A stretch of DNA of 37,227 nucleotides from Blastocatellia bacterium. GTDB lineage: Bacteria; Acidobacteriota; Blastocatellia; UBA7656; JADIYM01. Where the stretch lies: positions 1 through 37,227 of the forward strand of contig JAJTWZ010000042.1 of assembly GCA_021463145.1 (NCBI GenBank), read 5' to 3'. Position numbers and translations under genes: made by a program. How positions within the stretch are numbered: position 1 is the stretch's first letter; each line of letters begins with the position of its first letter. Shown in pieces: positions 1,146 through 34,660 of the stretch. The notes beneath the pieces are model-generated. The model saw only the letters and a list, made by a program, of their open reading frames with translations. It was not told the DNA's origin and searched no databases.

Positions 1146-2852
1146 TCACTGCTCCCGGCCCTGGTCTTCTTCGGACCGACCGGAGGCGCCACGCTGGCTG
1201 TCTTCGACGGCGTCGAAAAGTGTCGTGTGACGGTTTACCGGACCTGCCGACGGCTCGAGTCCCACGGCCCGCAGCATGTCCCGCACCTGCGAGTGCGTCT
1301 CGACCATCCGGAACTCGATGCCCCGGCGCCTCAGATCCTTGCTCATCCTGATCAGCATACGCGCGCCAGCCAGATCGACGACCGGCGTCGACGAGAGATC
1401 GGCGACGACCACCCTCAGCAGTGAAGCTCCGGCCTCGACTCGATCCACTATGGCTTTCGAGACGTTGTCGACGTTGAAGTACAGCAACGCCGCCTCGACG
1501 CGGAACGCGAGCACCCCGGGAATCTCTTCGTTGTCGGGATTCCGCGCGCGGTCGCCGAACCGGTTCGTCCCCGGAATCCTCCCGAGAAACGCCACGTGCG
1601 GCGACGCCGCGCGGCGAATCAGAAGCAGAATCGACGCGACGGCCGCAAGCAGCACGCCTTTGAGGATGCCGAGCAGCAACACGCCGCCGAGCGCAACGAG
1701 CGCAACGTGGAACTCGAGCCGGCTGATTCGCCGAAGCTTGAGGATCTCTGGGATGTTGATGAGCCCCTTCACCGCCACGAGCACGATGGCCGCAAGCACG
1801 GCTTTCGGCAGGTCGCGCACGAGCCCGGTAAGAAACAACAGGCAGGCGGCGAGAGCAATCGACGCGAATACGAGCGATAGTGGCGTCTTGGCTCCCGCCT
1901 TCTCGTTAACTGCCGACTGCGAGAGACCGCCGGCGACCGGATACCCGTGCCCGATCGACGCCGCCAGGTTCGCGACGCCAAGCCCCAGCAATTCCTGACG
2001 CACGTCGACCGCGTATCCATGTTTGGCCGCAAACGCCTTCGCCGCGGAAACGCTTTCGATGTATGCAAGCAGCAGACACGCGAAGGCGAGCGGAATGACG
2101 CCGTCGATGTCGCGAGCCCGAAGCTCGGGGAAGGCGATCTCGGGAAGGCCGCTCGGGATCTCTCCAACAGTCACGACGCCGTAGGTTCCGAGCGACAGGA
2201 ACCCAACGGCTGCAATCGATCCCGCCACGACAAACAGCGCGATCGGCCGCCCAGGCAGCAGACGGTCTCCGACAAGGAGTAGCAGGAGCGCCGTCGCGGC
2301 CACCGCGGTCGTCACGGGGTTCAGCCCGGAGATCTGCGAGACGATCAAACCCACCCGCTCGAAGAAATGGTCGCCGCCTCCAGCCACGCCGAAGAATGCC
2401 GGCAACTGCGTCATCGCTATGCTGATCCCGGCCCCCGCCTTGAAGCCGAGCAGGATCGTCTCGCTGATGAAGCTCGTGAGCGTGCTGAGCCGCAGCATCC
2501 ACGCGATCACGCTCAGCACGGCGAAAGTCAACGCGGCGAGCGCCGCGATCTGCGCATGATGCACCGGGTCGCCGAGAGCCAGCCCCGCGACGGTCGTCCC
2601 CACCAGCATCGAGATGGCTGACGTCGGCCCCACGGCGAGATGCTTCGACGAGCCGAACAACGCATACCCGATACCGCCGAGTATGTAGCCGTAGATGCCG
2701 GTTTCCGGCGGCAACCCGGCGAGTGCGGCATAGGCCAGCGAAACGGGAACGGCGTACGCAGCCAGCGTGATCCCGGCGATGAAGTCCGGACCAAGCCAGC
2801 TCATCCGGTACGCCGCCATCCACTGTCGAGGAGGAAAGAGTGACCAGTTCAC
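1146..2852 (-). CDS. SulP family anion permease with STAS domain
   Basis: Inner-membrane transporter of the SulP/SLC26 family, which moves sulfate, bicarbonate or other anions by proton or sodium symport; the substrate cannot be read from sequence. The N-terminal region has the family opening (GPDFIAGITLAAYAVPVSLAYAALAGLP), followed by about a dozen hydrophobic segments. A cytoplasmic STAS domain fills the last 110 or so residues (from FRVEAALLYFNVD through DLSSTPVVDLAG). The frame is open upstream to an ATG at 2939. I chose GTG at 2852 because GGAG lies six bases before it (2862-2859), the protein then begins just before the family's first helix, and the upstream extension would run through the palindromic operator at 2897-2914. 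That gives 568 residues, normal for the family. The gene stands alone and diverges from the secreted protein at 3007. Family assignment is sure; start is likely. Confidence 0.93.
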   Translation of the reverse strand: MNWSLFPPRQWMAAYRMSWLGPDFIAGITLAAYAVPVSLAYAALAGLPPETGIYGYILGGIGYALFGSSKHLAVGPTSAISMLVGTTVAGLALGDPVHHAQIAALAALTFAVLSVIAWMLRLSTLTSFISETILLGFKAGAGISIAMTQLPAFFGVAGGGDHFFERVGLIVSQISGLNPVTTAVAATALLLLLVGDRLLPGRPIALFVVAGSIAAVGFLSLGTYGVVTVGEIPSGLPEIAFPELRARDIDGVIPLAFACLLLAYIESVSAAKAFAAKHGYAVDVRQELLGLGVANLAASIGHGYPVAGGLSQSAVNEKAGAKTPLSLVFASIALAACLLFLTGLVRDLPKAVLAAIVLVAVKGLINIPEILKLRRISRLEFHVALVALGGVLLLGILKGVLLAAVASILLLIRRAASPHVAFLGRIPGTNRFGDRARNPDNEEIPGVLAFRVEAALLYFNVDNVSKAIVDRVEAGASLLRVVVADLSSTPVVDLAGARMLIRMSKDLRRRGIEFRMVETHSQVRDMLRAVGLEPSAGPVNRHTTLFDAVEDSQRGASGRSEEDQGREQ

Positions 2853-3676: not shown

Positions 3677-4165
3677 CTATCGCGTCCGGTACACGAAGAA
3701 AGACATGGTCACCGGGCTCCGCGAATTGTTGTAGGCAAGGGCCCGATAGCGGGGGAACCCGACGTCGAACCTCTGCTGCGCGCCCATGAAATAGGGTGAG
3801 CCTTTCGACGTCGCGTTGACCGTGATCTCGAGCGAAGCCGGAAGCAATCCCATCCCGCTGAACGCCTGATCGAATGGGGCGACGTCGGGGATGAGGATCA
3901 CGCCTACGGTTCCTCCCGCCTCGTCCACGCCGAGCATCTGACCCGCGATGTTGAGCGTGATCCTCTCGCAGCCGTCGGTATCGATCGTGCCGAGATCGAC
4001 GAGCGACCTTGTTTCGCTGCGACGCACCGGTGGCACCGAAACGCCTTTGACTCCAAAGAACTCGGACGCCCCCTCCATCTGCTGGATAGTCCCCTGTCCG
4101 AATGCAGTCGACGGAATGAACGCCACCGCAAGTGAAACGAGTGCAAGAAGTGTCGTGCGAAGCAT
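3677..4165 (-). CDS. Small secreted protein of unknown function
   Basis: 162 residues with a clear signal peptide (MLRTTLLALVSLAVAFIPSTAFGQ). The mature part is about 138 residues of predicted beta character: a segment reading GTIDTDGCERITLNIAGQM, a strand VGVILIPDV, and a C-terminal strand reading PVTMSFFVYRTR. The alternation looks like a small beta-sandwich, but no family is recognised. GGAGGG lies a few bases before the ATG. A TAGTTT -10-like box (4198-4193) sits 31.5 bp from the centre of the palindrome at 4221-4238, so this gene is probably one of the targets of the palindrome-binding regulator. It shares the intergenic region with the divergent gene at 4325. Confidence 0.82.
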   Translation of the reverse strand: MLRTTLLALVSLAVAFIPSTAFGQGTIQQMEGASEFFGVKGVSVPPVRRSETRSLVDLGTIDTDGCERITLNIAGQMLGVDEAGGTVGVILIPDVAPFDQAFSGMGLLPASLEITVNATSKGSPYFMGAQQRFDVGFPRYRALAYNNSRSPVTMSFFVYRTR

Positions 4166-4220: not shown

Positions 4221-4238
4221 ATGGGACCAAGGTCTCAT
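4221..4238. promoter_or_regulatory. Palindromic operator, site 2 (leftward gene 3677-4165)
   Basis: ATGGGACCAAGGTCTCAT keeps the GACC-NN-GGTC core. Its centre (4229.5) is 31.5 bp from the first base of a minus-strand TAGTTT box (4198-4193) and 24 bp from the centre of the neighbouring site 3. If that box is a -10, the site is centred near -43, a typical position for a class II activator. Confidence 0.7.
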
Positions 4239-4244
4239 GTGGTC

Positions 4245-4262
4245 ATTGGCCCATGGTCCAAT
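4245..4262. promoter_or_regulatory. Palindromic operator, site 3 (rightward gene 4325)
   Basis: ATTGGCCCATGGTCCAAT is a near-perfect palindrome. Its centre (4253.5) is 31.5 bp from the first base of a plus-strand TAGCAT box (4285-4290), which would place transcription start near 4297, about 28 bases before the ATG at 4325. The geometry mirrors site 2. Confidence 0.72.
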
Positions 4263-4324
4263 ACCGACGGTCGGCTCGGCCTCATAGCATGTGTGCGCCA
4301 ATTGACAACGGGAGTTCATAGAGA

Positions 4325-5395
4325 ATGCGATTCAGTACAGCCTCCATTATCTCGACGGGAATGCGGTTCGGCCTCGTGGCTCTTCTAGCGGCCGCTTCCC
4401 AATCCGGCAACGCAGCGGGTGCCCAGAAAGCCAAGAAGTCGAAGTCTCCAAAGAAGCCGGTTGCGACCGCAGCCAGTTCTACTGACGGACCGATGGTCGC
4501 AACCGTGCCGTTCCGCGAGCGCAACGGCAAAGACGTGTTCAATGCATCGGGAATCGTGGCGCTCGGCGACTCGCGCTTCGTGTTCGTCGACAACAATACG
4601 AACGACGCGCTGTTCGAGCTCGACCTCGCGCCGGACGGCTCGCAGGCCGCGCCGATCAAGCGCCTGCCGCTTCGCGGCCTAGCACCGGGAAGCGTGGACG
4701 ACATCGAAGACCTCGCACTCGCCGAGATCGGCGGCCGGCGCTACATCTTCGCCACGCCGTCGTTCTCTCTGATGAAAGGCAAAGGGAAGGGAGGGAGTGC
4801 GCCGGCCGTGCGGCCCAGTGCGCTGCTCAGGATCGCCGTAGGCGACGACGGATCGTTGACTACGGAGGCGATGACCGGCTTCCGCGACTGGTTCGTCAAG
4901 AATGTGCCCGCGGTTTCGGCCTCGGCAACGAAGTCGGCCGATGTCGGCGGACTCAACGTCGAAGGCCTGGGCTGGGATGCCGAGCGTTCGACACTTCTGT
5001 TCGGCGTGCGTACACCGCTGGTCGACGGGTTGCCGATCCTCGTTCCGGTTCGACTCAAAGCGACGGACGGCCCCTGGACGACGGCTAACCTCGAGGCCCT
5101 CGCACCAATCAAGTTGCAGATCGATCGCGGCGCCGGTGCTCAGGGGGTACGCGGTGTGACGACGAGATACCAGGGCAAGGGATTTCTCGTCGTCGTCGCG
5201 AACGCTATGAGCGGTGGGAAGGAACCGTTCGTCGTCTACGCCTGGGAAGGTCTCGATTCGGGCGCGGTTTCGAAGTTTCCGCACGCCTTCGCGAGCCAGG
5301 TGAAGGCCGAGGGACTGGCCGTCGGCACCATTGGCGGCAAGCCTGTAGTCGTGGTGGTCGACGATGGTGGCGGTTTCGGCGTCGTGTGGTTGTAG
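4325..5395 (+). CDS. Exported DUF3616-like protein
   Basis: 356 residues. A signal peptide begins either at the first Met or at Met13 (MRFGLVALLAAASQSGNAAGA), followed by a Lys-rich linker and then a beta-propeller-like domain. Strands include NASGIVALGDSRFVFVDNNT, DDIEDLALAEIGGRRYIFATPS, and GLNVEGLGWDAERSTLLFGVRTPL, which is the DUF3616 signature (LNIEGL, then a GxR-P segment). The family is uncharacterised; the fold resembles esterase-like or phytase-like propellers, so a periplasmic hydrolase is possible but unproven. GGGAG precedes the ATG. The gene probably starts an operon with the secreted protein at 5425 (29-base gap). Operator site 3 with a TAGCAT box lies just upstream. Confidence 0.8.
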   Translation: MRFSTASIISTGMRFGLVALLAAASQSGNAAGAQKAKKSKSPKKPVATAASSTDGPMVATVPFRERNGKDVFNASGIVALGDSRFVFVDNNTNDALFELDLAPDGSQAAPIKRLPLRGLAPGSVDDIEDLALAEIGGRRYIFATPSFSLMKGKGKGGSAPAVRPSALLRIAVGDDGSLTTEAMTGFRDWFVKNVPAVSASATKSADVGGLNVEGLGWDAERSTLLFGVRTPLVDGLPILVPVRLKATDGPWTTANLEALAPIKLQIDRGAGAQGVRGVTTRYQGKGFLVVVANAMSGGKEPFVVYAWEGLDSGAVSKFPHAFASQVKAEGLAVGTIGGKPVVVVVDDGGGFGVVWL

Positions 5396-8981: not shown

Positions 8982-10351
8982 TTGGCACCTCCCTCGGCGG
9001 ACGCGCTGCGCATCGATTCTGGCAGCATGTAGATGACCGACCGGTTCTCTTTCGACAGGTACTTTTTTGCCACGCGCTGAATGTCGGCAGCGGTGACCGC
9101 CTGCATTCGCGTGACCTCCTCGTTGACGAGCTCCGGGTTGCCGAGCACGCAAGACGCAAACCCGAGCGCATCGGCGCGTTGTTGCACCGTCTGCTGGCCG
9201 ACCGTGGATTCGGCGATGATCTGTGTCTTCGCCTTCTCGAGCTCGGCATCGGTCACCAGCTCGTTCTTCAGGCGCTCGATCTCGGCGGCAAGCTCCGCCT
9301 CTCCGTCCTCCGGCTTCTGTCCGCCGTTTAGAATCGCGAAGAAGAAGAACAGCCCCGAGTCCTCGAGGAACGCGCCGCTTCCAGACGCCTGCAGAGCGAT
9401 CTGCTTATCGTAGACGAGCCGCTTGTAGAGACGCGACGACTGGCCGGACGACAGGATGCGCGACGCGGCCTCGATTGCGTAGCTGTCAGGCGTGCCGGCG
9501 CCCGGGATGTGGTACGCAAGGATGACCGCCGGCAGCGGCGTCTTCGAATCGTAATTCGTGACGCGCCGCTCCGCCGCCTGCGGCGGTTCGGCCTTCGCGG
9601 GCCGGGGTATGTCTCCCGTACCCCGCTTCACGCCGCCGAAGTGCCTGGTAACGGCCTTCTTCAGGTCTGCCGCCTTGAAGTCGCCGACGACGACGAGTGT
9701 TGCGTTGTTCGGCTTGTAATAGGTCTCGTGGAATGCCCTCACGTCGGCCAGGGTCGCGGCGTCGAGGTCGGCTTTGGATCCGATCGGCAGCCACTTGTAG
9801 CTGTGCGTCGTGAAAGCCGTGCCGAATACGATCTGCGCGAGCTTGCCGAACGGCGGGTTTTCGACCCTCTGGCGTAACTCTTCGATCACGACGTCGCGCT
9901 CGCTCTTCAGGTTAGCGTCGTCGACGATCAGCGAAGACATCCGTTCGGCTTCGAGCCAGAGCGTCTGGTCGAGCGCGTTCGACGGAATCGTCTGCCAGTA
10001 GAACGTGTAATCGAAGTTGGTGCCGGCGTTGATCACGCCTCCGACGTCGCTGATGCGTTGGGCGTGTTCCTGCGGCCCAAGGTTCTTCGAGCCCTTGAAC
10101 ATCAGGTGTTCGAAGAGGTGGGCGAATCCGGTACGCCCGACCTGTTCTTCCTTCGAGCCGACCTTGTACCAGACCTGTACGTTGACGATCGGCGCCGAAT
10201 TGTCCTCCACCGCGACGACTTTCAGTCCGTTTGGAAGGGCGAACTGGATGATCTCGAGTTTGGGTGGACGGATCGACTGCGCCGAGACTGGCGGAAGCTG
10301 TCCGGCGAAGATCGCGGCCAGCGACAGGCCGGCGAGATATCTGTGCAGCAT
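8978..10351 (-). CDS. Catalytic M16 family zinc metallopeptidase
   Basis: 457 residues with a signal peptide (MLHRYLAGLSLAAIFAGQLPPVSAQ), periplasmic. The zinc motif HLFEH (78-82, in GFAHLFEHLMFKGS) is intact, and the downstream glutamates (SERDVVIEELRQRVENP) match the third zinc ligand region of M16. The C-terminal half is the second M16 domain with KRLVYDKQIALQASGSG. Family members degrade peptides and protein fragments. The start at 10351 was chosen because GGAGG lies nine bases before it and the signal peptide then begins properly; the open frame continues upstream without support. The 4-nt overlap with the non-catalytic M16 gene implies translational coupling and equal amounts of both subunits. 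Confidence 0.93.
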   Translation of the reverse strand: MLHRYLAGLSLAAIFAGQLPPVSAQSIRPPKLEIIQFALPNGLKVVAVEDNSAPIVNVQVWYKVGSKEEQVGRTGFAHLFEHLMFKGSKNLGPQEHAQRISDVGGVINAGTNFDYTFYWQTIPSNALDQTLWLEAERMSSLIVDDANLKSERDVVIEELRQRVENPPFGKLAQIVFGTAFTTHSYKWLPIGSKADLDAATLADVRAFHETYYKPNNATLVVVGDFKAADLKKAVTRHFGGVKRGTGDIPRPAKAEPPQAAERRVTNYDSKTPLPAVILAYHIPGAGTPDSYAIEAASRILSSGQSSRLYKRLVYDKQIALQASGSGAFLEDSGLFFFFAILNGGQKPEDGEAELAAEIERLKNELVTDAELEKAKTQIIAESTVGQQTVQQRADALGFASCVLGNPELVNEEVTRMQAVTAADIQRVAKKYLSKENRSVIYMLPESMRSASAEGGAK

Positions 10352-28528: not shown

Positions 28529-29926
28529 CTACTTCTCGTATCGAACTCCGAGCGCAAGGTACAGGTTAACGCGCTGCATCAGCTGTTCGCTCTGCACGCG
28601 GAGCAGCGTGACGCGCGCGCCGAAGAGCGCGAGTTGCTGCTGTTGAACCGTTCGCAGGTCGACCGTACCGATTCGAAAGGCCACCTGCTCGATCTCGAGC
28701 GTCCGGCGGCTGTCGACGACGAGTGCCGCGAGAATCTCGCGCCGCCGCTCGAGAGTATGCGTCGCGTGAATAGCACCCTCGACGTCACCGATCGCGCGAA
28801 GCGCGAGCCTCGCATAGTCGGCCACCGCCTGCTTCTGCTGGATCTCGCGGACCTTCACCTGCGCCTTGAGCTGTCCACCCTGGTAGATCGGCGCCAGAAT
28901 CGACGCGACGATGCCGCCAACCGGATTCGTGAAGTCGGGTTTCAGCTGGAGGGACGAACTCGTGATGTACCCGCCGGTTCCGGTCAATGAAATAGATGGA
29001 AGCCGGGCGGCGCGCGCCTCGCCGACGCGGTTGAACGCGGCCGCAACACGGCGCTCGGCGGCAAACATGTCGGGCCTGCGTTCCAGAATCTCCAGCGGAA
29101 TACCGGCGGGAACCGGGCCGGGCATTTGAGGCAGATCGGTTCGCGCCTGAATCTCGGCGCCGGGATAACGGCCGAGCAGGCTCTCGAGGGCCCGTAGCGC
29201 GTCGGCGAGCGCCAGCTCGAGTTGCTCTACGACGTCGCGGTAGTTGTTCAGGCTGGTGCGCGCGAGCAGCACGTCGCGTTCCGTGCCGACGCCCACCGTA
29301 AGTCGCTTGTCGGACAGAAGGACAAGTTGCTCCGAGGTCGCTACCATCTCTTTCGCAATCTCGAGGTGCACCTTGGTTTCGGCCGCCGTGAACCACGCGT
29401 TGGCGGTCGCGGCCGCGATGGACTGTCGCGCGAACTCTTCCTCGGCCACCGTCGCGACGTAGGTTTCCTGCGTTGCGTTGCGGGCGTAGCGAAGCTTGCC
29501 CCAGAGGTCGATCTCCCAGGAGATCGCGAATATTCCGCCGCTAAGACCCGTACCAAGGTCCTGGCCGAGTTTGGTGCTGTGACGGCCAGCGGCGCCGATG
29601 ACCGGCAACAGCTTTCCCTTCGCCGCCTTCACGTACTGCTCGGCCTCGTCCACGCGAAGCGAAGCGAGCCGGAGATCCGGGTTGTTCGCCACGGCTTCCT
29701 TGACCAGAGCCGTGAGTTGCGGATCGTTGAACTGCGCGAGCCAGTCGTCCTGCACCGGGCCCATTATCGCGCCAGGCGCCTTCCAGGGCTCGGTGAGGGC
29801 GTAATTCGGAAGCGCGTCCTTATGGATTTTGTCGCGTGCCGGTGGCTTCTTGACGCGGCACGCCGATCCGGAAATCAGGCATACGACGACGAGCACTGCA
29901 GCGAACAGGGGTTTTGCGTTTCGCAT
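28529..29926 (-). CDS. Outer-membrane efflux channel (TolC/NodT family) lipoprotein
   Basis: 465 residues. An N-terminal lipobox (ISGSAC, Cys about 23) shows a lipid-anchored signal. Two OEP repeats follow, with typical segments: DDWLAQFNDPQLTALVKEAVANNPDLRLASLRVDEA, then LEILERRPDMFAAERRVAAAFNRVGEARAARLPSISLTGTGGY and the second GTVDLRTVQQQQLALFGARVTLLRVQSEQLMQRVNLYLALG. Such trimers form the outer-membrane duct of tripartite export systems. It is the last gene of a DUF3302-HlyD-OMF operon, seven bases after the adaptor gene. No inner-membrane pump is encoded beside it. Confidence 0.93.
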   Translation of the reverse strand: MRNAKPLFAAVLVVVCLISGSACRVKKPPARDKIHKDALPNYALTEPWKAPGAIMGPVQDDWLAQFNDPQLTALVKEAVANNPDLRLASLRVDEAEQYVKAAKGKLLPVIGAAGRHSTKLGQDLGTGLSGGIFAISWEIDLWGKLRYARNATQETYVATVAEEEFARQSIAAATANAWFTAAETKVHLEIAKEMVATSEQLVLLSDKRLTVGVGTERDVLLARTSLNNYRDVVEQLELALADALRALESLLGRYPGAEIQARTDLPQMPGPVPAGIPLEILERRPDMFAAERRVAAAFNRVGEARAARLPSISLTGTGGYITSSSLQLKPDFTNPVGGIVASILAPIYQGGQLKAQVKVREIQQKQAVADYARLALRAIGDVEGAIHATHTLERRREILAALVVDSRRTLEIEQVAFRIGTVDLRTVQQQQLALFGARVTLLRVQSEQLMQRVNLYLALGVRYEK

Positions 29927-29933
29927 AGTTCGA

Positions 29934-31298
29934 TCAGTGCAGCTTGAGAATGAACCAGTCGAGCTTGGTCGATACCCGCAGGATCACCTTGCGAAGGATG
30001 TGGATGATATGACCCGATTGCGTATACACGGCTCCGTGCCCGCGCGCTCCCGCAGCAAAAAACTCGTTGGCGCTGTCGCCGTCGGGGAGAATTCTGACGG
30101 CGAATCGGCCTTCTGGAATCGGGTTCGCTCCGGTCTCGGGAATCCGGCCGGAAATCGGCGACTGCCCCTGGCCCGATGCCCAGACAATGGAGTCAACCTT
30201 GCACTTGATGATCTGATTCGGATGGGTCTCGAGCGTGATCTCGGCGTCGTCGCCGGGCTGGATCAGGCGCAGCTCGTTCTGATGGTAGAGCGCTATGATC
30301 CACTGTTCGTTTTCCACGAAGCTCATAACGGGAGCCAGCGGCAGCGGAACGGCGTACGATCCCGGCCGAAGCTGCAGGTTCACGACGGTTCCGTCCGCGG
30401 GCGCGTACACGGTCGTCTGTGACAGGTTCCATTTGGCCTCTTCCAATTTGGCGAGCACTTCGTCGAGTTCCGCCTTGACCTCGGCGATGTCCGCGAATTC
30501 TCCACTGGACGTGCGGGCCGACAACTTCTGCCCGGCTTGCGCCTCGCTGGCAGTGGCAGCCGCGTAGGCGGCCTTTGCTTTCTCGATCTCGGGAAGATCC
30601 TCGCCCTCGCCCGCAACCGTCAGTTTCTGACGAACCTGAGCTTCGTTGGCAGCAGCAGCCGCGAGTTCGGCCTCGAGGTTCTTGACCTCGGCCGCCGCGT
30701 ACTCGAAATCGAACCTTGGACCGGCTCCAGCCTCCGCAAGCTCCTTCGTCTGGTTGTAACGCATTCGCGCAAGTTCCAGCTTTGCGGCGATTGACTGCTT
30801 CTTGTTCACCGCCGCATCGAGCTCGTCGCCGAGCTGATCCTTGTACGATCGGGCGCTGGCGACTACGGCGGAGGCCTCCGACCTCTTCGCGGTAGCGACG
30901 CGCTTGGTGTCGCCTAGTTCGCGCTGGTAGGCCTGTGCGCTGGCAAGCTTGGCGTTCAACTGAGGAATCCGTGCCTCGAGAGTGGCGATCTGCTGCTCGA
31001 ACGGCACCGGATCGATCTTGAAGAGCACGTCGCCCTTCTTCACCGGCTTGTTCGGCTCGACTGGCACCTCGATAACGCGGCCAGAGACGCGCGGCACTAT
31101 CTGGACGACGTAGTTGATGACCCGGACATCCGAGGACGACGGCGCCACTATGTTCAGCAACAGAATGAGAACGGTCAGGGCGATGATCGGCAGCGTGATG
31201 ACGATGACCTGGCTGACGATGTTCCAGGGCAGCAGCTTGAACTTGAAGAAGATCAGCCAGACGAAGAAGGCGTAGATTAGAAGTAGGATGATCTCCAT
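29934..31298 (-). CDS. HlyD-family membrane-fusion (adaptor) protein, YibH-like
   Basis: 454 residues. Two hydrophobic N-terminal segments (about 2-20 and 26-52) precede the lipoyl half-motif VVQIVPRVSGRVIEVPVEPNKPVKKGDVLFKIDP, a long alpha-helical coiled coil (about 100-270, Ala/Glu/Lys-rich), the second lipoyl half VYAPADGTVVNLQLRPGSYA and a C-terminal beta domain. Two N-terminal helices and the partner DUF3302 match the YibH-YibI arrangement of Enterobacteria. Its ATG overlaps the DUF3302 stop by one base (TGATG), so expression is coupled. It probably links the outer-membrane channel to the inner membrane. Confidence 0.92.
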   Translation of the reverse strand: MEIILLLIYAFFVWLIFFKFKLLPWNIVSQVIVITLPIIALTVLILLLNIVAPSSSDVRVINYVVQIVPRVSGRVIEVPVEPNKPVKKGDVLFKIDPVPFEQQIATLEARIPQLNAKLASAQAYQRELGDTKRVATAKRSEASAVVASARSYKDQLGDELDAAVNKKQSIAAKLELARMRYNQTKELAEAGAGPRFDFEYAAAEVKNLEAELAAAAANEAQVRQKLTVAGEGEDLPEIEKAKAAYAAATASEAQAGQKLSARTSSGEFADIAEVKAELDEVLAKLEEAKWNLSQTTVYAPADGTVVNLQLRPGSYAVPLPLAPVMSFVENEQWIIALYHQNELRLIQPGDDAEITLETHPNQIIKCKVDSIVWASGQGQSPISGRIPETGANPIPEGRFAVRILPDGDSANEFFAAGARGHGAVYTQSGHIIHILRKVILRVSTKLDWFILKLH

Positions 31299-31798
31299 CA
31301 GTGTGATCCTCCGCCGGAGCCAAGCTGTGACTCGAGGGCGTTGACGTCGGCAATCGCCTGACGCAAGTCCGAGTTCTCCGGCGACTTGTTCGAGAGGTCG
31401 TTCAATCGCTCGCGCAACCGCCGCAATTCATCGGGCACGGCGGCGCTGACGGCCGATTCCGGTTCGTGGCCGTGCGGCACCTTGTCGACTCCGTACGCCG
31501 CCTTGTAGAAAACGGGTTTCGAGTAGGCCCACAGCCACGCCAGCGGCCACAGCAGGCCGCCGAAAAAGAGCGACAGGAGGCAGAGTGTCTGGATCGCTGA
31601 CGTCTGCGGATGCTCCTTCTTCTCGGCGATCTTTTCCGGAAGGATGTGCAAAAGCCAGAAGACGGCGATTCCGACGATCGGAACGACGATCAGCGCAAGC
31701 CAGGCGATGGCGTTCGCGAGCGAGTCGAGGGCGTCGCCTTCGAGCACGGACCTGGCGGCGCTGATGCCATGCGCTGCCGAGAGAACTATCGAGTTCAT
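31298..31798 (-). CDS. DUF3302 inner-membrane protein (YibI-like)
   Basis: 166 residues. A hydrophobic segment LANAIAWLALIVVPIVGIAVFWLL and the DUF3302 block HILPEKIAEKKEHPQTSAIQTLCLLSLFFGGLLWPLAWLWAYSKPV give two or three membrane helices. The C-terminal 55 residues form a charged coiled coil (PDELRRLRERLNDLSNKSPENSDLRQAIADVNALESQ). The family has no known function but sits beside HlyD-like genes. I chose the ATG at 31798 because GGAGG lies ten bases before it; an in-frame ATG at 31819 would place the first codons over that site. It is the first gene of the leftward operon. A TAGTAT box (31876-31871) and operator site 4 lie upstream. Confidence 0.88.
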   Translation of the reverse strand: MNSIVLSAAHGISAARSVLEGDALDSLANAIAWLALIVVPIVGIAVFWLLHILPEKIAEKKEHPQTSAIQTLCLLSLFFGGLLWPLAWLWAYSKPVFYKAAYGVDKVPHGHEPESAVSAAVPDELRRLRERLNDLSNKSPENSDLRQAIADVNALESQLGSGGGSH

Positions 31799-31898
31799 AA
31801 AGCTGGTGCCTCCCCGCATTGGGGTCGTTGCGTTCTCAGTCTGTCGACGATGGAGTGTGGCGTGCCAAGCATACTAGAAGTGACCGCAAACGGCGCAT

Positions 31899-31916
31899 AT
31901 TGGACCTTGGTCCAAT
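31899..31916. promoter_or_regulatory. Palindromic operator, site 4 (leftward DUF3302-HlyD-OMF operon)
   Basis: ATTGGACCTTGGTCCAAT is the best copy: all eight bases of each half match. Its centre (31907.5) is 31.5 bp from the first base of a minus-strand TAGTAT (31876-31871), giving a start near 31864 and a leader of about 66 bases before the DUF3302 ATG. Confidence 0.75.
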
Positions 31917-31982
31917 TCACGGCCTTTCCGTAGACGGAACCTGCGCGCGGATCGATCCAATACGATCAGGTACGCCGGGGAC

Positions 31983-32000
31983 GTTGGACCATGGTCCCAT
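31983..32000. promoter_or_regulatory. Palindromic operator, site 5 (rightward DUF3300-DUF2950 operon)
   Basis: GTTGGACCATGGTCCCAT. Its centre (31991.5) is 32.5 bp from the first base of a plus-strand TAGTAT (32024-32029), giving a start near 32036 and a leader of about 70 bases. It faces the opposite way to site 4, so each divergent operon has its own copy. Confidence 0.72.
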
Positions 32001-32106
32001 ACTCACGCCGGTCCGGCAGGGCGTAGTATGGGGCGCTAGACAAGGCGCCAGTGCGCGCCTGCTCGTCCTTTCCCGCTAACGCTGCGATCCCATCGGAGGT
32101 GCATTG

Positions 32107-33621
32107 ATGAGAGTGAAGCGAATTCATCGCTCGGGGGCGAGTCGGCTCGCCGTTTGCGGAGCGGCACTTGTATTGGCGGCCGCTGGGCTGGCGCCGACGC
32201 CCGCGCGGGCGCAGGCTGCCTACCTTTCCGTGACCGAGATCGAGCGACTTGTCGCGCCGATAGCGCTCTATCCGGATCCGCTGATCGCCGAAGTTCTGCC
32301 GGCATCGACGTACCCGGACGAGGTCGCGGCCGCCGCGGACTACGTTGCGCAGTACGGCTCGACGGACAAAAACATCGATCGTCAGGGATGGGACAAGAGC
32401 ATCGCCACGCTGGCTCGCTATCCGGAAGTACTCAACAAGATGGCGGACGACATGGACTGGACCGCCGACCTGGGCGACGCGTTCCTGTCGCAACCGGCCG
32501 ACGTCATGGATGCGATCCAAACCTGCCGCGGAGTTGCCAAGGAACGCGGCGCCCTCGAGTCGAACGCGCAGCAGACGATCGTCTACGAGGAAGAGAACAT
32601 CCGCGTTGTGCCTGCGCAGGACGATGTGGTCTACGTTCCGCAGTATCAGCCCCAGGTGGTCTACGTGGAGGAGGATGACGACGACGTGGACTGGGGCGGT
32701 GTCGTCGCGGCCGGGGCCGTCAGCTTCGGCGTAGGCATGGCCGTCGGATCCTGGCTCGACTCAGATTGCGACTGGTACGGCGGCGGGGTGTATTACCCGC
32801 ATTACGGAGGCCACCCGTCCTGGAATTCCTACCGGCACGGCGGGAACGTCAACGTGAACGGCGACGTGATCGTCAACCGTCCGATCAACAACTACAACAG
32901 CACCAGGAACTGGAACCACGACTCGAATCGATATCAGAACAACATCAACAGGTACGGCGACAAGTACAACAACCGGTATCGGGACCAGAACAGAGCCCAG
33001 AACCGCAATTCCGTACGGCAGAACAAGGTCGCGAACGCGGGCCGAAATCCGCAGAACCGGAACCGCAACAACGCCGCCGGCAGGAACAACGCCGCCGGGC
33101 GGAACGACAGGACGGCACGTGACACGGCGGCGTCCCGTGACCTGACGAAGCCGGCGACCCGTGACGCGGGCCGCAACGCTGGACGAACCGCGGATCCGTC
33201 TCGAACGGGTAGTGGCGGACGAAGCACCCGCGACACGACACCGGCTCCGGATCGCGCGAAGAAGGATTCGCTCGACAGGCAGCAGATGCAGCGAGACCGG
33301 CAGCGGCAGGATAGTGCTTCGCGGGGCCGGCAGGATTCCGGAGCGCGGCCCGGTCAGTCGGCGGCGCCTCGCCGCGAGCCGTCCAAGCCGCCAAGCTACG
33401 AACGCGGCAGTTCGGCAAGGCGTGAGAGCGATCGCGGGCTAAGCAGCCGCCAGCAAGCAAATCCGAGATCCAGCGGGGCATTCGGCGGCGGCGGCAGCCG
33501 CGGGCAATCGCAACCGAGGATGAGTGGCGGCGGTGGTGGCGGTAGTCGCGGAGGAGGTGGTGGACGTGGCGGTGGTGGCGGGGGTGGACGCGGCGGAGGC
33601 GGAGGACGCAGGGGTCGTTGA
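32107..33621 (+). CDS. DUF3300 secreted protein with Asn/Arg/Gly-rich tail
   Basis: 504 residues. A signal peptide (about 1-36, ending PARAQA) leads to the DUF3300 domain (about 37-185): SVTEIERLVAPIALYPDPLIAEVLPASTYPDEV, VLNKMADDMDWTADLGDAFLSQPADVMDAIQ and VVYVPQYQPQVVYVEED. A hydrophobic glycine segment (VAAGAVSFGVGMAVGSW) follows, then a Tyr/Gly patch and a long disordered C-terminal half: Asn/Arg-rich (260-340), Arg/Ser/Asp-rich, then an arginine-glycine tail (about 475-504). The ATG at 32107 has GGAGG seven bases before it. DUF2950 follows after 79 bases; the two families occur together in many genomes. The function is unknown; an envelope-located scaffold or matrix protein is a reasonable guess. 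Confidence 0.9.
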   Translation: MRVKRIHRSGASRLAVCGAALVLAAAGLAPTPARAQAAYLSVTEIERLVAPIALYPDPLIAEVLPASTYPDEVAAAADYVAQYGSTDKNIDRQGWDKSIATLARYPEVLNKMADDMDWTADLGDAFLSQPADVMDAIQTCRGVAKERGALESNAQQTIVYEEENIRVVPAQDDVVYVPQYQPQVVYVEEDDDDVDWGGVVAAGAVSFGVGMAVGSWLDSDCDWYGGGVYYPHYGGHPSWNSYRHGGNVNVNGDVIVNRPINNYNSTRNWNHDSNRYQNNINRYGDKYNNRYRDQNRAQNRNSVRQNKVANAGRNPQNRNRNNAAGRNNAAGRNDRTARDTAASRDLTKPATRDAGRNAGRTADPSRTGSGGRSTRDTTPAPDRAKKDSLDRQQMQRDRQRQDSASRGRQDSGARPGQSAAPRREPSKPPSYERGSSARRESDRGLSSRQQANPRSSGAFGGGGSRGQSQPRMSGGGGGGSRGGGGGRGGGGGGGRGGGGGRRGR

Positions 33622-33700
33622 GGCCCGGTCGCCTCGGTGACGCGTCGATGCGCGTTCACGGATCCGCTAATGAGTTCGCCATCCACCAGGAGAGACAGCA

Positions 33701-34660
33701 ATGAAGACTCGCAAGCAAACGGTTTCGATCAATCGGGCGGCGCGCAATTGGACAATCGCGCTCGCCTTCGTCGCCTTGTTGGCTCAGCCATGCTCGACCG
33801 CGCTTGGCCAGAGCACTGGCCAGGACACATACGACTCTCTCGATGCCGCCGTCGAGGCGTTCAAGGGAGCATTCGGCACTCCGGTTTCGAGCGTCCCCGG
33901 ACCGCGCACGCGAATTTTCGGGACCGAGTTCACCAGCTTCTCGTCCGGCGAGGCCGCCCAGGACAACGCCGAACTCGCGAAACTCGACAAGGCCGTGAAA
34001 GAGGTCGTGCGCCCGGTGATGATCAATCCGAAGCACGCGGTTCTGTTCATCGGCGCCCTCAACTGGCCGTTTCCGATTCCGGTCATCCAGAACGCTGCCG
34101 GGAAGTGGTTCTTCGACACCGCGGCCGGCCGCGAGGAGTATCTGAATCGCAGGATCGGAAGGAACGAACTCTCGACCATGGAGACCCTTCGCACGTGCGC
34201 CAGAGCGCAGGTCGAGTATGCCGCCGTGGATCGCGACGGGGACGGCGTGCTCGAATACGCTCAGAAGTACCTGAGCACGGACGGGACGAAGGACGGCCTC
34301 TACTGGCCTTCGGCGGCCGGAGAATCGATGAGCCCGATCGGCGCGTTGATCGCGGGAGCGATGGACGAGGGTTACGTCGCGGGTCAGAAGTCGTATCACG
34401 GATATCGCTATGCGATCCTGACCTCTCAGGGCGCGGCAGCCGCCGGAGGCGCGAAGGACTTCCTGGTCGACGGCAACATGGTTCGCGGCTTCGCCCTTCT
34501 GGCGTATCCGGTGAGCTGGGGATCGTCGGGAGTAATGACGTTCGTCGTAGGGCCGGACGGCCGCGTATTCGAAAGGAACCTGGGGCCGTCGACGCCGGAG
34601 GCCGCTGCTGCGATCACGACTTACAACCCCGATGCTTCGTGGAAACTGTCTGACGACTAG
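33701..34660 (+). CDS. DUF2950 secreted protein
   Basis: 319 residues. A signal peptide (about 1-35, ending STALGQS) precedes the DUF2950 domain: YDSLDAAVEAFKGAFGT, GALNWPFPIPVIQNAAGKWFFDTAAGREEYLNRRIGRNELSTMETLRTCARAQVEYA, then a Ca-binding-like DRDGDGVLEYAQK and a C-terminal half reading DGLYWPSAAGESMSPIGALIAGAMDEGY and WGSSGVMTFVVGPDGRVFERNLG. The family is uncharacterised and exported; the motif-rich core suggests a ligand-binding or processing role. It follows DUF3300 and ends before a good hairpin terminator. Confidence 0.9.
   Translation: MKTRKQTVSINRAARNWTIALAFVALLAQPCSTALGQSTGQDTYDSLDAAVEAFKGAFGTPVSSVPGPRTRIFGTEFTSFSSGEAAQDNAELAKLDKAVKEVVRPVMINPKHAVLFIGALNWPFPIPVIQNAAGKWFFDTAAGREEYLNRRIGRNELSTMETLRTCARAQVEYAAVDRDGDGVLEYAQKYLSTDGTKDGLYWPSAAGESMSPIGALIAGAMDEGYVAGQKSYHGYRYAILTSQGAAAAGGAKDFLVDGNMVRGFALLAYPVSWGSSGVMTFVVGPDGRVFERNLGPSTPEAAAAITTYNPDASWKLSDD

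Follow-up and report, generated by a model that had tools for sequence, protein, structure and literature searches.

A conserved DUF3302-HlyD-outer-membrane-factor operon without a pump gene, and its putative FixJ-type promoter link to DUF3300-DUF2950, at a Blastocatellia locus

The stretch analysed here (the window) is one complete contig, C111, of 37,227 bases, from the 5.28-Mb draft genome of a Blastocatellia bacterium. It harbors a two-armed locus: a leftward operon encoding a DUF3302 protein, a HlyD-like adaptor and an outer-membrane factor (OMF) lies back to back with a rightward operon encoding exported proteins of the DUF3300 and DUF2950 families, and each arm has one copy of a palindromic operator. 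The five genes and their best profile matches are:

28529-29926, minus strand: OMF, an outer-membrane channel of the NodT/TolC type, transcribed third in the leftward operon (TIGR01845 NodT subfamily 4e-84, OEP 3e-45)
29934-31298, minus strand: YiaV/YibH-type HlyD adaptor (HlyD_D23 3.5e-12)
31298-31798, minus strand: DUF3302 protein with two transmembrane (TM) helices (PF11742 4.9e-15)
32107-33621, plus strand: DUF3300 exported protein (PF11737 4.2e-47)
33701-34660, plus strand: DUF2950 exported protein (PF11453 1.2e-87)

These matches place all five genes where, and in the families to which, an earlier reading of the letters alone (the sequence-only reading) had assigned them. The preferred starts are 31798 (minus) for DUF3302 and the ATG at 32107 (plus) for DUF3300, with a purine-rich ribosome-binding site immediately 5' of both.

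DUF3302, adaptor and OMF form a conserved operon that lacks a pump gene. The window's DUF3302 protein was scanned against 84,980 species genomes and 80 loci were retained (the best 80 of 100 hits by likeness), spanning Verrucomicrobia, Proteobacteria, Bacteroidetes, Myxococcus, Desulfobacterales and others. Gene order is DUF3302, then adaptor, then OMF in all 80. (This count leaves the E. coli branch uncovered, because the loci were picked for likeness to the window's DUF3302.) When the 80 directons were screened for pumps with an in-house gene finder and TM helices were counted from hydropathy, 62 of them showed no gene with at least 8 predicted TM helices. The remaining 18 contain differing TM-rich genes, none of them consistent; a CaX antiporter is among these, and others are presumably, as judged by reading their sequences, SulP, AI2E-like and AspT-like proteins and, in one case, a complete separate RND set. 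No pump is conserved across the 80 directons, and its absence is therefore a property of the family. Nor does any pump-like gene adjoin the leftward operon of the window on either side. What the window and the 80 loci have of a tripartite exporter is the adaptor and the OMF; an energy-coupled inner-membrane pump is missing from the window's operon and is not conserved in the 80 loci. The sequence-only reading had held that the third member of the trio is DUF3302 and not an ABC, MFS or RND pump, and this is borne out: a dedicated pump gene in the operon, which would have told against it, was sought at the operon flanks and in the 80 loci and was not found. The sequence is compatible both with DUF3302 taking the place of a pump and with recruitment of an unlinked one. 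Of 118 genomes related to that of the window, 1 has DUF3302 and 8 have DUF3300; the trio was therefore probably acquired.

The nearest counterparts of the trio are E. coli YiaW-YiaV and YibI-YibH, in which the DUF3302 gene is likewise directly 5' of the adaptor gene, with no pump beside it. YiaV and YibH match the window's adaptor, which belongs to their family, in the N-terminal anchor of two helices and in the RK..LR C-terminus. The E. coli form differs in being limited to two genes (yiaW-yiaV, yibI-yibH), with no OMF gene, and in not lying near yacH, the E. coli DUF3300 gene, which is under CpxR control and linked with the response to protamine (PMC9600279); its DUF3302 and adaptor proteins are 33% and 29% identical, respectively, to those of the window. 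Deletion of yibI in one uropathogenic E. coli strain lowers adhesion and gives a competitive index of 0.33 in urine (PMC5404293), and an insertion in yiaW left phagosome maturation unchanged (PMC5495878). YiaV/YiaW and YibH/YibI remain uncharacterised in E. coli; now that the family is connected with an OMF, with DUF3300-DUF2950 and with a particular promoter class, there are partners and an inducing pathway to look for, and conserved residues to mutate.

EmrAB-TolC, MdtNOP and AaeXAB have the adaptor fold and an OMF partner in common with the trio. The trio is unlike them in having no MFS, FUSC, RND or ABC pump, and its adaptor has an extra TM helix. It is also not of the AaeXAB type (DUF1656 AaeX together with a FUSC pump): it has no conserved pump gene, and DUF3302 as a relative of AaeX was rejected (hhalign 0.2%). 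On the other hand, the periplasmic part of the adaptor is EmrA/AaeA-like (EmrA, at 1.4e-20, is its closest solved relative; AaeA scores 99.4%), and AaeXAB, too, has a small two-helix protein ahead of its adaptor. AaeX is thought to be an assembly factor for AaeAB, and orphan adaptors that share pumps are known. The trio might on these grounds be thought of as an ordinary tripartite exporter with its pump encoded elsewhere, DUF3302 being a small assembly factor and the adaptor recruiting, in trans, a pump of the EmrB or FUSC type. We regard this as rather doubtful: 62 directons have no pump and the other 18 no consistent one, similarity between DUF3302 and AaeX is nil, AaeA has nothing matching the first 50 residues of the adaptor, and conservation of DUF3302 TM2 goes far beyond the need of a mere helper. 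Should the trio work without a pump, one would have to revise the rule by which adaptor and OMF depend on an energised partner.

The conserved parts of DUF3302 are a loop, HILPEKIAEKKEHPQ, and the second TM helix (TM2), LCLLSLFFGGLLWPLAWLWAY, both nearly invariant (the majority residue has a mean frequency of 0.76 in the loop and 0.95 in TM2). A cleavable-looking signal peptide is frequent at the start of DUF3302 relatives, implying that the mature N-terminus and the variable tail would be periplasmic and the loop (HILPEKIAEKK-HPQ) cytoplasmic. The N-terminus of the adaptor is a two-helix membrane anchor (frequency 0.78 over residues 1-60, compared with 0.38 in the hairpin), and its C-terminus (RKVILRV..KLDW...KLH) is conserved and membrane-like. 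That the TM hairpin of the adaptor and TM2 of DUF3302 are the best conserved parts of the two proteins indicates a membrane function. The adaptor of the window is 454 residues long, against ~393 in its relatives; each arm of its hairpin has an insertion (28 and 33 residues), as if the hairpin had been lengthened symmetrically by about four heptads.

The core of DUF3302 resembles the Imm_superinfect family (PF14373). Like T4 Imm, it has two helices around a P..IA..R.H loop, with G..W...LIWA in the second helix; weak matches to the family are found in 9 of 17 DUF3302 members (best 2.8e-4), and profile comparison gives 59.7% (E 8.9e-5) against 1.1%, 0.5% and 0.2% for three controls. The resemblance is suggestive, homology being not proven, and DUF3302 goes beyond Imm_superinfect in its signal peptide, its periplasmic tail and its adaptor and OMF partners. 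It raises the thought that DUF3302 is an Imm-like two-helix blocker of passage through the inner membrane (of phage DNA or another substrate), with adaptor and OMF as docking partners. This is highly improbable: the resemblance spans only ~45 residues, no phage copy of DUF3302 was found, the operon and regulon context is one of stress and ion transport, not defence, and a defence role was rejected, with no PADLOC match. (A similarity of DUF3302 to rhodopsin chloride pumps, at ~5e-4, is attributed to common helix composition.)

The two arms have matching promoters:

31900-31915: operator TTGGACCTTGGTCCAA of the leftward arm, 0 mismatches, centre at about -44
31984-31999: operator TTGGACCATGGTCCCA of the rightward arm, 1 mismatch, centre at about -44
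31871-31876, minus strand: leftward -10 hexamer TAGTAT, 23 bp from the operator
32024-32029, plus strand: rightward -10 hexamer TAGTAT, 24 bp from the operator

Both arms thus carry the same operator, as the sequence-only reading had claimed. At up to 3 mismatches the window contains 5 copies (in 100 shuffles the mean is 0.09 copies and the highest count 1). On the examined contigs of the genome, TANNNT, mostly TAGNNT, follows the operator, in gene orientation, at a spacing of exactly 23 or 24 bp at 9 of 14 sites, against a background of 0.8% (P 4e-16); this spacing was first noticed at the two sites of this locus, without which the count is 7 of 12. It places the operator centre near -44, the position of an activator that replaces the -35 element, and no sigma-70 promoter is otherwise found. 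A palindrome at activator distance from a -10 element, without a -35 element, is the arrangement of FixJ/NarL-type promoters. The operator centres at 31900-31999 are spaced 84 bp, or eight helical turns, apart, so that dimers bound to them would sit on one face of the helix.

The operator stands ahead of each of the genome's three DUF3300 genes, of PPK2 and of several exported-protein genes; it is also found beside a mechanosensitive channel gene and near an esterase and other unrelated genes. The exact core, GGACCWWGGTCC, occurs 7 times in the genome, every time on C102, C111 or C168, three contigs that make up 1.9% of its length; since these contigs may be neighbours, the copies show clustering, not independence. 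A search of open-licence papers did not turn up this operator sequence.

A GerE-domain regulator beside a kinase, with a palindrome at about -44, is what FixJ/NarL-type regulons present, and this combination is seen here. On C102 the operator lies between the second DUF3300 gene and a leftward operon whose products are a receiver, an exported protein of 779 residues, a regulator of the FixJ type (receiver-GerE) and a histidine kinase of the GAF type. A variant palindrome, TAGGSCCAAGGGCCAA, is found in Lysobacteraceae between a PAS-kinase/FixJ pair and a receiver-DUF3302-HlyD-OMF operon, and in Stenotrophomonas (L065) the variant is also ahead of DUF3300; across the 80 loci there are 24 variant palindromes, as compared with 2 for a complementary control pattern. 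In Verrucomicrobium the palindrome precedes FixJ genes. Operator-linked FixJ regulators have the recognition helix EKT[VI]K[VI]HR in common, whereas regulators near operator-free Cupriavidus loci have a different one. The putative activator would accordingly be sought among FixJ/NarL-type response regulators, the one on C102 being the best candidate. That contig (L102-L104) also has two further DUF3300-DUF2950 pairs, PPK2, MscS and carbonic anhydrase genes, several of them, like the kinase/FixJ operon, with the operator; the set is probably one stress island. The gene heading the Lysobacteraceae DUF3302 operon (L024, L027, L029, L062, L063, L065, L069, L089; ~9450-9950) encodes a receiver-only response regulator, which suggests a built-in phosphate sink or competitor.

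The DUF3300-DUF2950 pair is a module in its own right. DUF2950 genes are next to a DUF3300 gene in 48 of 49 cases (50 genomes), and in the window DUF3300 is directly upstream of DUF2950, with both proteins exported. The pair has been described as universally co-localised, with signal peptides and DUF3300 first, and as induced in root-nodule bacteria (Sci Rep 2015, PMC4653623). That account offers no further neighbourhood clue; the present locus connects the pair with DUF3302 and with a promoter class of FixJ type. The DUF3300 protein consists of a helical domain, an Asn/Arg-rich disordered tail and a Gly-Arg C-terminus (encoded at ~33481-33618), the last two as anticipated from sequence; a Gly-rich stretch and two Arg end most of the DUF3300 relatives found beside DUF3302. 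Its structure model is confident over only the first 150 residues of the domain. Assigning a function to DUF2950 or DUF3300 by fold was given up: mean pLDDT is 64-65 and no PDB match has E <1, so no function is read from the folds.

Association of the two modules is real, but not obligate. In only about a dozen of the 80 loci are DUF3300/DUF2950 genes no more than 10 kb away from DUF3302, be it in the same directon before DUF3302, in the same directon after the OMF gene, or on the opposite strand. Burkholderiales loci with the pair in the trio's directon have it upstream (L085, L094, L091) or downstream (L022, L055, L060), and an annotated plasmid of Eleftheria terrae (L139) has DUF3300 8 kb from DUF3302-HlyD-TolC. 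Among 50 DUF3302-positive genomes DUF3300 is present in 33 and DUF2950 in 31. In a Burkholderiales sample that leaves out the centre genome, DUF2950 is present in 6 of 9 DUF3302-positive and 15 of 240 DUF3302-negative genomes (Fisher 1.2e-5), the two genes of the six double-positives being on different contigs or far apart. A Gammaproteobacteria sample (2 of 7 against 14 of 266, P 0.057) is suggestive only. Comparison of gene neighbourhoods has thus not turned up the failure of DUF3300/DUF2950 to co-occur with DUF3302/HlyD that would have spoken against the sequence-only reading. Its proposal that the arms are one system stands as regards common promoter architecture and co-occurrence. It does not stand for an obligate system: DUF3300 is missing from 17 of the 50 DUF3302-positive genomes, and DUF3302 from 15 of the 21 DUF2950-positive Burkholderiales genomes. 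Each module is also found without the other, and the two are therefore separable modules of one regulon, not one obligate machine.

The frequent occurrence of each module alone also suits a simpler explanation, in which the arms are co-regulated stress genes of one promoter class with no physical or functional partnership. The operators ahead of PPK2 and near the esterase and unrelated genes point the same way, and this explanation has an appreciable chance of being correct, although a lesser one than the reading that we prefer. It sits less well with the presence of the pair inside the trio's directon in several Burkholderiales loci, and with co-occurrence that persists within one order even when the genes are on different contigs.

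The reading that we favor, with some reserve, is that of two separate, widespread envelope modules under one FixJ-type activator, with the trio perhaps forming an envelope-spanning conduit. A kinase-FixJ pair would sense stress; the neighbouring genes (PPK2, SulP, Ion_trans_2 channel, CaX, MscS and some acetate-kinase genes) indicate ionic or energy stress. The phosphorylated candidate regulator would then bind the operator TTGGACCWWGGTCCAA at -44 and switch on both arms, a step for which the evidence is that of sequence. Along with the two arms, the C102 regulator would activate PPK2, genes for exported proteins and the other two DUF3300-DUF2950 pairs, as part of a response to envelope or energy stress. 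For the conduit itself the proposal is tentative and less likely than not: the OMF would dock onto the adaptor ring, and adaptor anchors together with DUF3302 hairpins would make up an inner-membrane base with an unusual four helices per adaptor-DUF3302 pair. This base might gate the conduit, with DUF3302 gating or adapting its inner end, or might pick up co-expressed transporters. DUF3300 and DUF2950 would work in the periplasm or at the surface within the same response and are not proposed as fixed conduit subunits; the sequence-only reading had them as possible cargo. A bolder version, in which DUF3302 itself is the inner-membrane working part (a ring of two-helix DUF3302 and adaptor subunits gating the OMF without a classical pump, FixJ-switched along with DUF3300/DUF2950 partners), is unlikely.

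Several points weigh against the favored scheme. Position and helix type are the grounds for assigning the regulator, and gene order and conservation those for the conduit. The operator is convincing upstream of DUF3300 in only ~2 of 20 regions outside the window genome, and was not found in most of the 80 DUF3302 loci, so this mode of control is not a general one (a universal operator upstream of DUF3300 was rejected, the operator being mostly absent in other phyla). Co-occurrence of the modules may be due in part to shared ancestry or shared islands.

New in this analysis are the operator-N23/24-TAGNNT architecture on both arms and at other genes, the kinase/FixJ operon beside the same operator, the variant operators ahead of the Lysobacteraceae DUF3302 operon, the resemblance of DUF3302 to Imm_superinfect, and the extra conserved two-helix anchor of the adaptor.

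The window has three further operators:

2898-2913: weaker operator, 5' of the SulP sulfate-permease gene (1146-2819, minus strand), with no -10 element at the usual spacing
4222-4237: operator of the same class, with TAGTTT 23 bp off towards the leftward gene 3677-4165
4246-4261: operator with TAGCAT at 4285-4290, 23 bp off, towards the rightward gene 4325/4361

The pair at 4222-4261 is divergent and faces genes for two exported proteins without a Pfam match (3677-4165 and 4361-5395). The genes flanking the two-armed locus encode an APH-type kinase, an unassigned 121-residue open reading frame and a PfkB kinase. The SulP permease and an Ion_trans_2-type channel on C111 (1146-6748), with a weakly DUF4136-like gene between them, belong to families met repeatedly next to DUF3302 at other loci (11 and 10 locus groups, respectively, whether the window is included or not). 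Phosphate acetyltransferase and acetate kinase genes are near DUF3302 in L139, L022, L045 and L059, and L139 also has DUF3141 and FabI; the presence of ackA, pta, fabI and DUF3141 near some loci is reminiscent of the low-oxygen (lxa) locus of B. cenocepacia.

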